The notes beneath the pieces were generated by a model that saw only the letters and a program-made list of their open reading frames with translations, was not told where the DNA came from and did no database searches. Shown piece by piece: positions 11,616 through 18,600 of a stretch of 39,645 bases of DNA (positions within the stretch are counted from its first letter, which is position 1; each line of letters starts with the position of its first letter). Origin of the DNA: an uncultured Paracoccaceae bacterium (GTDB taxonomy: Bacteria > Pseudomonadota > Alphaproteobacteria > Rhodobacterales > Rhodobacteraceae). The translations under genes and the position numbers were made by a program. The DNA is taken from positions 1 to 39,645 of the forward strand of contig CAJXWO010000001.1 in NCBI GenBank assembly GCA_913062865.1. The letters run 5' to 3'.

Positions 11616-12281
11616 CTAGAAGCTGTGCGGCGTGTCGGATGTCGCCTGCCGCAAGAAATCGGCAAGCTCTCCGTAGCCTGTCCAGCGTCGCTCGAACGCC
11701 AGCCCCAGCCGGTCCGCGCAGGCCCGGGCGGCCTCGGTCAGGGCCGGATCGTCGGTCTGGGCCTGGTAGACAAGCTTGGTGTAGTGGCCGAAATACATGT
11801 CCCTGAGGTCGGGATGCCGGTCGAGGCCCAGGGGTTTCCAGACAAAGGCATCGAACTGGCGGACCAGGAAATCGGTCAGGTAGAAGGCCGTGACCTCGTT
11901 ATGGTCTGCAAAGCGGTCGACCCCTTCGAAAAAGGCGTAGCAATGGGGTCCGCGGACCATCTCGATTCCCAGTTCGGCGCAGGCCGCCTGTAACTGACCG
12001 CCAGTACCGCAATCTGCATAGGCCACGCAGACGCGGTCGTAATCGTCCCGGTGCCGCGCCACGGCATCGCGCACCGCGCCGGTGATCCGCTCGGGGTGGT
12101 TGTGCAGGATCGCGGGCAGGCAGGTCAGGTCCAGGTGATCCCAGCCGTTCAGGCGCTTCAGGTCGAGGATCTCGCGTGCGAGCGCCCCGCAGGCGATGAT
12201 CAGAACACGCCCCGTGCCCGCGGGGGCCAGACCTGTCCGGGTCAGCTGCGTGTCGCAGGGGGGCAGGTCGGTCGGGGTCAT
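11616..12281 (-). CDS. DUF1638 family protein of the corrinoid methyltransferase locus
   Basis: This 221-residue protein has the DUF1638 pattern: IIACGALAREI near the N-terminus, LDLTCLPAILHNHPERI, and VAYADCGTGG, with HCYAFFEG and KPLGLDRHPDL further on. Conserved Cys and His residues (CGA, CLP, HNHP, DCGTGG, HCY) suggest a metal or corrinoid-related role. No enzymatic activity is established as far as I know. Members commonly sit beside corrinoid proteins and methyltransferases, as here, two genes after the cobalamin-binding protein. The ATG overlaps the stop of the preceding mini-ORF as ATGA, so translational coupling is expected. It may handle the corrinoid protein or its methyl group, which is inference. 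Confidence 0.88.
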   Translation of the reverse strand: MTPTDLPPCDTQLTRTGLAPAGTGRVLIIACGALAREILDLKRLNGWDHLDLTCLPAILHNHPERITGAVRDAVARHRDDYDRVCVAYADCGTGGQLQAACAELGIEMVRGPHCYAFFEGVDRFADHNEVTAFYLTDFLVRQFDAFVWKPLGLDRHPDLRDMYFGHYTKLVYQAQTDDPALTEAARACADRLGLAFERRWTGYGELADFLRQATSDTPHSF

Positions 12282-12406
12282 GTCAGAACACCTTCGGCAT
12301 CGGCGCGCTCAGCGCAGGTGCCGCGAACCGTTGCGCGCGACAGTGTAATCCGGGCCGGGGTCGTTTCCGCGGTATTTCGGGCCGCGGGGACGTTCGGAGC
12401 GGCCAT
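12278..12406 (-). CDS. Possible 42-residue coupled ORF between corrinoid protein and DUF1638
   Basis: A short frame on the minus strand starts MAAPNVPAARNTAETT with a good ribosome-binding site (GAGGGG, 6 nt before the ATG). It ends in a 4-nt ATGA overlap with the DUF1638 start. It fills most of the 193-bp gap after the corrinoid gene. The sequence is Ala/Thr/Arg-rich with one Cys and matches no family I know. It may be a real small protein or a translated leader that couples DUF1638 to its operon. The start signal and exact overlap argue against chance, and the composition argues for caution. Confidence 0.45.
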   Translation of the reverse strand: MAAPNVPAARNTAETTPARITLSRATVRGTCAERADAEGVLT

Positions 12407-12474
12407 GGTGCACCCCTCTGCATTGACGCCGGGTGAGCATGCAGCCACGGGCCCAGGCGGGCTATGCTGTTCGG

Positions 12475-13179
12475 TCAGCCGGCTGCCATCTGGTTGTGCT
12501 TGCGCGAGATGAAGTCCTTGGCGGTCTCGACCGCGACGGCGGCATCTCGGCAATAGGCATCGGCGCCGATCGCACGGCCGAATTCCTCGTTCAGTGGCGC
12601 GCCGCCGACAAGAACGACGTAATCCTCGCGGATACCTTTCTCGACCATCGTGTCGATCACGACCTTCATGTAGGGCATGGTCGTGGTTAGCAGGGCCGAC
12701 ATGCCAAGGATGTCGGGCTCTTCGGTTTCCAGCGCCTCGAGGTAGTTTTCGACAGGGTTGTTGATCCCGATATCGACCACCTCGAAACCTGCGCCTTCCA
12801 TCATCATGGACACGAGGTTCTTGCCGATGTCGTGGATGTCGCCCTTGACCGTACCGATCACCATCTTGCCCTGCTTGGGCGCGCCGGTTTCGGCCAGGAG
12901 CGGCTTCAGGATAGCCATACCGGCCTTCATCGCGTTGGCGGCCAGCAGCACCTCGGGGACGAACAGGATCCCGTCGCGGAAATCGTGTCCGACGATCGTC
13001 ATGCCCGCGACCAGCGCCTCGGTCAGGATACGGTAGGGGGCCCAACCTCGTTCGAGCAGGATGTTGACGCCCTCTTCGATCTCTTCCTTGAGACCGTCAT
13101 AGAGGTCGTCCATCATCTGTTGGACCAGTTCCTCGTCGTCAAGTTCGCTGAGGATGATGTCGTCTTGGTCTTCCGACAT
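12475..13179 (-). CDS. Cobalamin (corrinoid)-binding protein, methyl-carrier subunit of split methionine synthase
   Basis: This 234-residue protein combines an N-terminal helical B12-binding-2 (cap) domain at about residues 15-100 with a Rossmann-like cobalamin domain. The domain carries the DxHxxG signature, Asp114-His116-Gly119 in GDIHDIGKN, where His116 would be the lower axial cobalt ligand. GINNPVENYLEA and VLVGGAPLNEEF complete the fold. This is the same architecture as the MtbC/MttC corrinoid proteins and the central modules of MetH. With the separate homocysteine methyltransferase 1.3 kb away, it most likely carries the methyl group for methionine synthesis. AAAGGAAG precedes the ATG. 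Confidence 0.93.
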   Translation of the reverse strand: MSEDQDDIILSELDDEELVQQMMDDLYDGLKEEIEEGVNILLERGWAPYRILTEALVAGMTIVGHDFRDGILFVPEVLLAANAMKAGMAILKPLLAETGAPKQGKMVIGTVKGDIHDIGKNLVSMMMEGAGFEVVDIGINNPVENYLEALETEEPDILGMSALLTTTMPYMKVVIDTMVEKGIREDYVVLVGGAPLNEEFGRAIGADAYCRDAAVAVETAKDFISRKHNQMAAG

Positions 13180-13351
13180 GGGTGCGCTTCCTTTTATCCG
13201 GCCGGGATGCCGAGTTCGCCTTGTCGGTCAGGTTTCGTCAAATTGGCCCTTGGCCACTATGCGGATTGCGACACTGCCCGCGCCGCAACCGACTTGCCGG
13301 GATGCATTTGCCGGAAATGTGACCGAAAACACGCATCGGACGCAGGACACG

Positions 13352-13380
13352 TTGCGCATGTTCCTCCTTTGTTCTAAAAT
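13352..13380 (+). promoter_or_regulatory. Promoter with LexA (SOS) box in the spacer
   Basis: The -35 element TTGCGC (13352-13357) and the -10 element TAAAAT (13375-13380) are separated by exactly 17 bp. Inside the spacer lies GTTC-N7-GTTC (13360-13374), the known alphaproteobacterial LexA operator. Seven bases after the -10 element is the ATG at 13387, and no ribosome-binding site precedes it, so the transcript may be leaderless. Repression by LexA and induction by DNA damage are predicted for the downstream radical SAM gene. Confidence 0.7.
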
Positions 13381-13386
13381 GGGCGT

Positions 13387-14472
13387 ATGCGTGAGGACAT
13401 GCCGCACATTCCGACGGAACGCCGCCCCGGGCGCGGCACCGGCCTGAATCCCGAGGGCCGGTTCGAGAGCCTGCGCCGGTCCGATTTCGACGATGGCTGG
13501 GACCGCGACGAAGAGCTTCCGCCGTTCCGCACCCTCATCACGGAAGAACGCCCACGCCGCATGATCACGCGCAACCAGTCTCCCGATGTGCCCTTCGACC
13601 GGTCGCTGAACCCCTACCGGGGCTGCGAGCATGGCTGCATTTATTGCTTCGCCCGTCCCGGGCACAGCTATCTGGGCCTGTCGCCGGGGCTCGATTTCGA
13701 AACGCGGCTGGTGGCACGGCCCGCGGCGGCAGAGGTGCTTGAGCGTGACCTGAGGCGCAGATCCTATCGCCCGGCAGTGATCGCCCTTGGGACGGCGACC
13801 GACCCCTACCAGCCCATCGAGGCGCGCTATGGCATCACTCGCGCCTGCCTAGAGGTCTTGCGCGACTACCGTCACCCGGTGGGCGTGGTCACGCGCGGCA
13901 CGCTGGTCGAGCGGGATGTGGATGTGCTGGCCGAGATGGCCGCGATGGGGCTGGCGCAGGTGGGCATTACCGTGACGACGCTCGACGCCGGGCTTGCGCG
14001 CAAGCTCGAACCCCGCGCGCCATCGCCTGCACGCCGCCTGAAGATGATCGCGACCCTGGCGCAGGCGGGTGTTCCCGTGCGCGTGAATGTCTCGCCCATC
14101 ATCCCCGGGCTCAGCGATGACGGGATCGAGGCGGTAATGGCCGCGGCCCGCGATGCAGGCGCGGTCAGGGCCAGCTGGGTCATGCTCCGGCTGCCCTTCG
14201 AAGTCTCGGAGCTGTGGCGCGACTGGCTGGCGACCCATTACCCCGACCGCGCGGGCAAGGTCATGGCCCGCCTGCGTGACATGCACGGCGGCCGCGACTA
14301 TGCGCCGGACTGGGGCCACCGCATGCGGTGCGAGGGGCACTATGCCCAGATGATCGCGCATCGCTTCAAACTGGCCCAACGGCGGCTGGGGCTCGATGCC
14401 GACCTGCCGGAGCTGCGTACGGATCTCTTTCGGGTGCCGCCCCGGGCCGGCGATCAGCTGAGCCTGTTCTAG
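13387..14472 (+). CDS. PA0069-family radical SAM protein (SPL-like)
   Basis: This 361-residue protein has the radical SAM cluster motif CxxxCxxC at Cys80, Cys84 and Cys87 (GCEHGCIYCFARP), ligating a 4Fe-4S cluster that cleaves S-adenosylmethionine. The surrounding sequence (SLNPYRGCEHGC, ALGTATDPYQPIE, VNVSPIIPGLSD) matches the PA0069/Rv2578c family, distantly related to spore photoproduct lyase. The substrate is unknown. It lies between two genes of the methionine synthase island but on the opposite strand and with its own LexA-boxed promoter. A DNA repair or damage-response role fits better than methyl transfer. The ATG at 13387 is used; a second in-frame ATG is at 13399. Confidence 0.92.
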   Translation: MREDMPHIPTERRPGRGTGLNPEGRFESLRRSDFDDGWDRDEELPPFRTLITEERPRRMITRNQSPDVPFDRSLNPYRGCEHGCIYCFARPGHSYLGLSPGLDFETRLVARPAAAEVLERDLRRRSYRPAVIALGTATDPYQPIEARYGITRACLEVLRDYRHPVGVVTRGTLVERDVDVLAEMAAMGLAQVGITVTTLDAGLARKLEPRAPSPARRLKMIATLAQAGVPVRVNVSPIIPGLSDDGIEAVMAAARDAGAVRASWVMLRLPFEVSELWRDWLATHYPDRAGKVMARLRDMHGGRDYAPDWGHRMRCEGHYAQMIAHRFKLAQRRLGLDADLPELRTDLFRVPPRAGDQLSLF

Positions 14473-14478
14473 GTCGGC

Positions 14479-15498
14479 TCAGCTCGTCCGCCGCCGCCGT
14501 CCGCGCCGTTCGCGGGCCGGGGCGGCATCGTCGCCGGTGCCATCGCTGGCCGAGGAGAAGCCGCCCAGTGCCCCCGCGATCTGGTCGAGCGTGGGGCGCG
14601 GACCTGCCGGGCGGTCCTCCAGTGCAGCGCGCATGTGGCGCAGATGCTCGGGTGTCGTGCCGCAGCAGCCGCCGATGATCCGCGCGCCGCAATCGCGGGC
14701 CAGCACCGCGTATTCCGCCATCAGCGCGGGCGTGCCATCGTAGTGGATATGGCCGTCCACGTATTTCGGGATGCCCGCGTTGCCCTTGGCGATGACCGGC
14801 CGCTCGGTGCCTTGGGCCACGAACCCCAGCACCGTACGCAACAGATCCGACGCGCCCACGCCGCAATTCGCGCCGAAGGCGATGGGCGGGTTGGGCAGCG
14901 TCTCGACCATCTGCGCCATGTCGGTGGCCGTGAGGCCCATCATCGTGCGGCCCGCGGTGTCGAAACTCATGGTGCCGCACCATGGCATGTCGGCCAGGGC
15001 AAAAGCCTCGGCCGCGGCGCGGTATTCCTCGGGCGCGCTGATGGTTTCGAGCCAGAGGATATCGGCGCCGCCCTCTTTCAGCCCCTCGGCCTGTTCATGG
15101 AAGATCTCTACCGCAGCAGCATGGCTCAGCGCGCCGGTGGGCTCCATGATTTCGCCCGTGGGTCCGACCGAGCCTGCCACGATCAGGGTGCGCCCGGCGG
15201 CATCGGCCACCTCGCGGCCCAGTTCGGCGGCCACGCGGTTCAGTTCGCGCACGCGGGACTGGGCGTCGTGCAGTTTCAGCCGCGCGGCATTACCGCCAAA
15301 GGAGTTGGTCAGGAACAGGTCGGACCCGGCCTCGACCGGCCCGCGATAGAGCGCACGGATCTTGTCGGGCTGGTCTACGTTCCACAGCTCGGGCGCGTCG
15401 CCGGACTGGAGCCCCATGTTGAACAGCGTCGTGCCGGTCGCACCGTCCGCCATGATCCAGTCGCGGGTGGCCAGCAGGTCGCTCAGGGCGTCGGTCAT
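14479..15498 (-). CDS. bmt: Zinc-dependent homocysteine S-methyltransferase (betaine--homocysteine methyltransferase family)
   Basis: This 339-residue enzyme equals the N-terminal homocysteine-binding module of MetH/BHMT. It has an N-terminal DGATGTTLFNMG, and the zinc ligands Cys212 (GANCGVG), Cys278 and Cys279 (IGGCCGTTPEH). It would transfer a methyl group to homocysteine to make methionine. Annotation pipelines often call it betaine-homocysteine methyltransferase. In Phaeobacter, as I recall from published fitness data, a homologous locus with a separate corrinoid protein acts as a split methionine synthase. The C-terminus is an Arg-rich tail of unknown role, beyond the usual barrel. It is convergent with the radical SAM gene, with six bases between the stop codons. 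Confidence 0.9.
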   Translation of the reverse strand: MTDALSDLLATRDWIMADGATGTTLFNMGLQSGDAPELWNVDQPDKIRALYRGPVEAGSDLFLTNSFGGNAARLKLHDAQSRVRELNRVAAELGREVADAAGRTLIVAGSVGPTGEIMEPTGALSHAAAVEIFHEQAEGLKEGGADILWLETISAPEEYRAAAEAFALADMPWCGTMSFDTAGRTMMGLTATDMAQMVETLPNPPIAFGANCGVGASDLLRTVLGFVAQGTERPVIAKGNAGIPKYVDGHIHYDGTPALMAEYAVLARDCGARIIGGCCGTTPEHLRHMRAALEDRPAGPRPTLDQIAGALGGFSSASDGTGDDAAPARERRGRRRRTS

Positions 15499-17557: not shown

Positions 17558-18600
17558 TGCGCGCGGCGCAGATCACTGCCTGGCGGGCGCCGCCCGACAT
17601 CGTCGATCTGGCCGACCCGGCACCGCCGAAGGGCGGCGTCGTCCTCAGGGTGCTGGCGGCCGGTGTTTGCCGGTCGGACTGGCACGCCTGGACCGGGGCC
17701 GACAGCGACGTGTCCTTGCCCCATGTTCCTGGTCACGAATACTGCGGCGAGGTCGTGGCGGTCGGCGCCGGCGTGACGCGCTGGAAAACGGGCGACCGGG
17801 TGATCGCGCCCTTCATCCTTGCCTGTGGGGCCTGCGCCGATTGCGCGGCGGGGCACCAGACGATCTGCGCCGACCAGGTTCTGCCCGGGTTCACCGCACC
17901 GGGGGCCTTTGCCGAATTTGTCGCGGTCGCCCATGCCGACGCGAACCTCGCGGCCTTGCCCGACAGCATCGCGCCGGACCTGGCCGCCGGGCTCGGCTGC
18001 CGCGTGACAACCGCCTGGCACGCCCTGACGGGCCGTGCCGCCCTGCAACCCGGCGAGTGGCTGGCGGTGTTCGGCGGTGGCGGGGTCGGCATGTCCGCGC
18101 TCTTGCTGGGCCGGGCCATGGGCGCGCGGGTCATCGTCGTCGACGTGGTGCCTGAGAAACTGGACTTCGCGCGCTCGCTCGGGGCGGATGCCGTGGTGAA
18201 TGCCGCAACCGAAGATCCGGTCACCGCGATCCGCGACATCACCGGCGGCGGGGCCGATCTGTCCATCGAGGCGCTGGGGATCGCCGAGACGACCGTCGCC
18301 GCGCTGCGCTGCTTGCGGAAACTGGGGCGCATGGTCCAGATCGGGATGCCCGCGGGGGACCATGCCGCGATGAAGCTGCCTATGGACGTCGTCTATTCCG
18401 GGCAGCTGGCGATCTATGGCACCCGGGGCATGCCCGCCTGGCGGTATCCGTCCCTTCTGAACCTGATCGCGGGCGGGCGGGTGGACCTGACACCCCTCGT
18501 CACCCGCCGGATCCCGTTGAGCGCGGCGGGGGCCGAGCTAGCCGCCTTCGACGGGCCCGCGCCTCCGGGCGTCGCCGTCATCACCGATTTCCTGACCTGA
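17557..18600 (+). CDS. Zinc-dependent alcohol dehydrogenase (medium-chain family) inside the purine operon
   Basis: This 347-residue MDR protein has the catalytic zinc ligands Cys38 (GVCRSDWH) and His60-Glu61 (GHEYCG). The structural zinc lobe is complete, with Cys90, Cys93, Cys96 and Cys104. The Rossmann motif is VFGGGGVGMSALL, followed by an acidic residue in VIVVDVVPEKL that favours NAD over NADP. The oxidised substrate is unknown. It lies between purS and purQ, sharing TGATG with purS, so it must be translated from the purine transcript. No link of this family to purine synthesis is known to me, and co-option or insertion of an unrelated gene are both possible. Confidence 0.9.
   Translation: MRAAQITAWRAPPDIVDLADPAPPKGGVVLRVLAAGVCRSDWHAWTGADSDVSLPHVPGHEYCGEVVAVGAGVTRWKTGDRVIAPFILACGACADCAAGHQTICADQVLPGFTAPGAFAEFVAVAHADANLAALPDSIAPDLAAGLGCRVTTAWHALTGRAALQPGEWLAVFGGGGVGMSALLLGRAMGARVIVVDVVPEKLDFARSLGADAVVNAATEDPVTAIRDITGGGADLSIEALGIAETTVAALRCLRKLGRMVQIGMPAGDHAAMKLPMDVVYSGQLAIYGTRGMPAWRYPSLLNLIAGGRVDLTPLVTRRIPLSAAGAELAAFDGPAPPGVAVITDFLT

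Follow-up and report, generated by a model that had tools for sequence, protein, structure and literature searches.

The splB-type radical SAM gene at positions 13,387 to 14,472 on the plus strand of the window (the whole stretch of 39,645 nucleotides that was analysed) is very likely both controlled by LexA and transcribed as a leaderless mRNA, as judged from its promoter region and those of its relatives.

Promoter and operator organisation

The whole regulatory region would amount to a housekeeping-sigma promoter of which the -35/-10 spacer is nearly all LexA operator. The -35 element TTGCGC (13,352–13,357, plus strand) and the -10 element TAAAAT (13,375–13,380, plus strand), both only partial matches to the consensus, are separated by a 17-bp spacer (13,358–13,374), with 15 of these 17 bp taken up by the operator GTTC-N7-GTTC, GTTCCTCCTTTGTTC (13,360–13,374, plus strand). 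The A of the ATG at 13,387 is the seventh base past the -10 element and, based on this geometry, is the predicted transcription start. A start codon earlier than 13,387 is excluded because a TAA is found in frame at 13,375. When the sequence is read directly, no Shine-Dalgarno (SD) sequence is present ahead of this ATG, and the operator contains CCTCCTTT, which has the anti-SD sense. An earlier sequence-only reading had described the same promoter, with the operator over 15 spacer bases, an ATG seven bases past the -10 element and no ribosome-binding site; both the direct reading and the coordinates agree with that description.

Counts of the box are close to chance, with two occurrences in the window versus 1.14 expected (not significant) and 62 genome-wide versus 53 for a reversed control pattern (no clear excess). 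Such counts would fit a chance match in front of a gene outside LexA control. Since the numbers alone are near chance, conservation was used as the test; the significance of the predicted operator comes from its position and conservation, a single box in 40 kb being insufficient. The second GTTC-N7-GTTC of the window, at 17,878–17,892, is located inside an alcohol-dehydrogenase-like ORF. It is probably a chance occurrence and was put aside as an SOS site.

Conservation of the operator

Orthologues were drawn from two collections. The first comprised 80 alphaproteobacterial loci from genome contigs, covering the region from 300 nt upstream, and 75 of these have the exact box. The second was a sample from the order, in which the gene is present in 168 of 197 genomes, and provided 109 same-family upstream regions of 180 nt each. 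Here the exact box is found in 96 regions, versus 0.33 expected from a Markov simulation, although the orthologues share descent and a syntenic locus and are not independent counts. Control repeats with other words, or with a spacing of 5, 6, 8 or 9, are found in 0 to 4 of the same 109 regions. The box that the sequence-only reading proposed to look for upstream of orthologues is thus present in both collections. Of the 13 orthologues that lack an exact box, three carry a box with one mismatch at a distance of exactly 27 bp from an ATG; in the other 10 of the 109, no exact box and no suitably placed box with one mismatch is present.

The orthologous proteins are approximately 55–69% identical, with variable bases both within the box and around it. 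Two promoter columns outside the searched pattern are kept in the 77 class A orthologues (described below). One is the TTG at box -8 (98, 85 and 90% per base), the other is [TC]A at +15/+16 (99–100%). A T at +20 is found in 75% of them, and the flanks outside these promoter columns are not conserved. The -35 and -10 elements were assigned based on their sequence together with these columns. In the other classes of the phylum, 14 of 21 homologues carry a CTGT-N8-ACAG box upstream. With the box retained in nearly all orthologues of the order, held at a fixed place with respect to promoter and start codon, and replaced by another LexA motif in other classes, a chance match is very improbable.

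On the minus strand, the operator sequence is AAAGGAGGAACATG, which could instead be taken as the SD (AAAGGAGG-AAC-ATG) of a small ORF, with the GTTC repeat being incidental. However, the inner seven bases that form the AAAGGAGG SD vary freely in orthologues, whereas the GTTC words do not. This reading was rejected on that lack of conservation and has a negligible probability. The ORF itself runs on the minus strand from 13,359 down to 13,228 (43 codons) and is probably a chance ORF.

The splB-type gene lies on the strand opposite to both of its neighbours, a corrinoid protein gene (12,475–13,179) and a betaine-type homocysteine S-methyltransferase gene (14,479–15,498). A further neighbouring ORF is found at 11,616–12,281 (region 11,616–15,498). 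This arrangement is nearly unchanged across the Rhodobacterales loci.

Probable SOS regulon of the genome and earlier reports

LexA is encoded in the genome (TIGR00498, 181.8 bits; cut-off 110.95). With gene identities taken from a family search, exact boxes precede lexA (49 bp, in the opposite orientation), recA (67 bp), uvrA (95 bp), a uvrD/pcrA-like helicase gene (55 bp) and a Y-family, imuB-like gene (19 bp). The splB-type box has a motif identical to the alphaproteobacterial SOS operators of recA, lexA and uvrA. The presence of lexA, the same box at SOS genes and its near-universal occurrence at the orthologues all speak for the earlier claim that this is the established alphaproteobacterial SOS operator. 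The boxes of lexA, recA, uvrA and the uvrD-like gene lie 49–95 bp before the start codon, where a leader fits, whereas that of the splB-type gene lies 27 bp before it.

An exact LexA-type box is also found 119 bp before a gyrB-like ORF (L087), which was not counted as an SOS gene; in Sinorhizobium meliloti, parE is an SOS gene according to PMC3323433. Another box, GTTCTTTAAATGTTC (L110, G000:C14:22627-22641), lies between an aldo/keto-reductase-like ORF and a 208-aa ORF, 31 bp before the latter. Judging by its AT-rich spacer, this box may mark one more SOS gene, but the 208-aa ORF has no Pfam or NCBIfam match and was not counted either.

According to Sanchez-Alberola et al. (2012, PMC3323433), LexA control of splB is predicted in alpha- and betaproteobacteria by group-specific LexA motifs, and splB is cited elsewhere as SOS regulated in several species (PMC8565304). 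Because of this 2012 prediction, the core claim, SOS control of splB, is already known. The present gene is a further member of this set, being likewise predicted to be under SOS control by the motif of its own group. The sequence-only reading was therefore right in placing the gene in the DNA damage response, though this is not new. In its available part, the 2012 account of splB mentions neither where in the promoter the operator lies nor a leaderless start, nor does it describe a clamp motif or the absence of the relay residues of spore photoproduct lyase (SPL). Literature searches pairing PA0069 with LexA returned no match.

Probable leaderless geometry and promoter classes

Three classes of upstream region can be told apart. 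In class A, comprising 77 of 96 orthologues, the ATG follows the start of the box at 26–29 bp, and at exactly 27 bp in 51 of them. The class A transcript is for this reason predicted to start on the AUG. SD-like 4-mers are found in 1 of the 77 class A regions versus 58 of 238 neighbour ORFs.

In the second class (n = 34; other alphaproteobacteria), the TTG of the -35 element is inside the box, at +4 in 31 of 34, the TA of the -10 element is at +26 to +28 in 31 of 34, and the ATG is at 37–40. Ten same-family orthologues belong to this class, with a box-to-ATG distance of exactly 39 bp. Based on these columns, promoter and ATG have shifted jointly by about 12 bp downstream relative to the operator. 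The spacing between -10 element and ATG stays at about 7 bp despite this shift, and by the positions of promoter and ATG the second class would again be leaderless. SD-like 4-mers are counted in 13 of its 34 members, a number that is inflated by the -10 element itself often reading TAGGA. The third class, mostly Rhizobiales, shares the promoter type of the second class but has its ATG at least 45 bp from the box; SD-like 4-mers are found in 26 of 33 of these long leaders.

The third class could be taken to indicate that LexA control is real at the splB-type gene while its mRNA has a leader as well, with transcription starting further upstream or with translation from the in-frame ATG at 13,399, behind a 12-nt leader that contains GAGGA (13,393–13,397). 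However, this GAGGA is 1 nt from the ATG, which is too close for a normal SD, and the ATG of relatives keeps its class A distance and follows the -10 element when the promoter moves. A leadered mRNA is therefore unlikely.

The splB-type mRNA is very probably leaderless, and the main basis for this reading is the fixed -10-to-ATG geometry in relatives. Together with the absent SD, it favours the earlier suggestion of a possibly leaderless gene, still as a prediction. In S. meliloti, 171 leaderless mRNAs have been mapped, all starting with AUG (PMC3616915). Like these, the splB-type mRNA would have the A of its AUG as first base and no SD; the start is predicted here from comparative geometry, whereas theirs were mapped, and the splB-type gene differs from that set by the SOS operator in its promoter spacer. 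The conserved leaderless arrangement was not found in the literature searched and is apparently new. That the start codon moves along with the promoter while the operator stays in place argues clearly, by comparison, that leaderless translation has been selected for in an SOS gene.

As long as cells are undamaged, LexA sitting on the spacer would keep RNA polymerase off the promoter. Upon DNA damage, RecA-stimulated cleavage of LexA would free it, such removal of LexA being established for SOS genes. Transcription would then begin at the A of the AUG itself or one or two bases away from it, and the ribosome would initiate at the 5' AUG without an SD, as is established for leaderless mRNAs.

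Family, fold and catalytic residues of the radical SAM protein

The 361-aa product matches the Pfam Radical_SAM family and scores 489.4 bits against NF033668, well over the curated cut-off of 360, and the earlier assignment to the PA0069 family stands on this match. The radical SAM cluster motif CEHGCIYC is located at residues 80–87 (13,624–13,647, plus strand), and C80, C84 and C87 are invariant in the family alignment. An AlphaFold2 model, built on a 39-sequence alignment, has a mean pLDDT of 80.4, with residues 1–47 poorly defined and a weak tail. The top PDB fold match to this model is SPL (Foldseek E-value of 8e-08), which was missed by sequence search and matched by fold search only. Using VIA-align, the model aligns to SPL with a Z of about 20 and an rmsd of 3.3–4.8 over 263–280 residues; the next fold family is NifB, with a Z of 15.5.

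As described in PMC5368176, radical transfer in SPL involves C141, Y99 and Y97 (Bacillus subtilis numbering). A local profile alignment with SPL covered 68 columns, and the equivalent residues were therefore taken from a MAFFT alignment of remote homologues. Both the MAFFT alignment and the profile also include a B. subtilis row, and the conclusion rests on the row of 4FHC, the SPL of Geobacillus thermodenitrificans. The Y97 position corresponds to Y86 and is kept, whereas F88 stands in place of Y99. Around the C141 position, the sequence is GTxTDPYQPIE, with T136, T138 and D139 invariant, and the only conserved cysteines in the PA0069 family are C80, C84 and C87. Consequently, the family alignment holds no conserved counterpart of the H-donor Cys (C141) or of the relay Tyr (Y99). 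The PA0069-family protein thus shares with SPL (4FHC and B. subtilis SplB) the radical SAM fold, the CxxxCxxC motif and the Tyr97 equivalent, and differs from it in these two residues.

Since conservation is lacking for the H-donor Cys and for one relay Tyr, true lyase activity appears doubtful. It could be argued, in line with the 2012 proposal, that the SOS system nevertheless controls a genuine SPL or an enzyme of photoreactivation here, with SPL being by far the best fold match and with the cluster motif and the Tyr97 equivalent kept. An unusual donor would be possible for the PA0069 family, since clostridial SPL has its Cys at another position (PMC5368176). Against this stands, besides the two residues, the spore photoproduct itself, which is typical of endospores (PMC3742179). 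These bacteria do not form endospores. Overall, a genuine lyase is rather unlikely. For photoreactivation, it is of note that repair by SPL is not light-driven. The protein modelled here probably has a related fold and performs DNA-directed radical chemistry without the SPL mechanism. The earlier claim of a relationship to SPL is thus upheld by the fold and not by the catalytic residues.

A putative clamp-binding motif at the C-terminus

The protein ends in QLSLF (residues 357–361; 14,455–14,469, plus strand), a putative beta-clamp-binding motif according to its conservation and the published consensus, QL[S/D]LF or QxxLF (PMC12309361). In the last five residues of 109 alphaproteobacterial homologues, Q is found in 102, L in 89, a variable residue at the third position, L in 100 and F or L in 100, while the stretch ahead of these residues is more variable. 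When read by eye, all 21 homologues from other classes have QxxL[F/L/W] within their final seven residues. The pLDDT of the tail is 71 for residues 351–360 and 51 at residue 361. PolC has the identical pentapeptide, also at its extreme C-terminus (PMC12309361), whereas the solved SPL 4FHC ends without such a motif. The tail is accessible and conserved and matches the consensus, although the motif is short and linear. Binding of the beta sliding clamp by this tail is, on sequence grounds, somewhat more probable than its absence. No paper on a clamp motif in the PA0069 family was found in the literature searched, and the C-terminal QLSLF-type motif is apparently new.

Implications for the PA0069 family

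The product would be a radical SAM enzyme with the SPL fold, probably acting on DNA. Through its flexible QLSLF tail it could dock on the beta sliding clamp at sites of replication or repair, where it may react with some lesion. Tentatively, and with somewhat less than even confidence, the PA0069 family may thus be seen as an SOS-induced radical SAM DNA-repair enzyme other than SPL, delivered to lesions by the sliding clamp by way of QLSLF. In this view, Rhodobacterales and several other alphaproteobacteria would translate it from a leaderless mRNA, the ATG having kept its distance to the -10 element as the promoter moved by about 12 bp against the LexA operator. So far, splB has been regarded as encoding a photoproduct lyase. 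With relay residues lacking and a clamp-type tail conserved, another role is suggested, in which the clamp recruits a radical enzyme that repairs damage or helps the cell to tolerate it.
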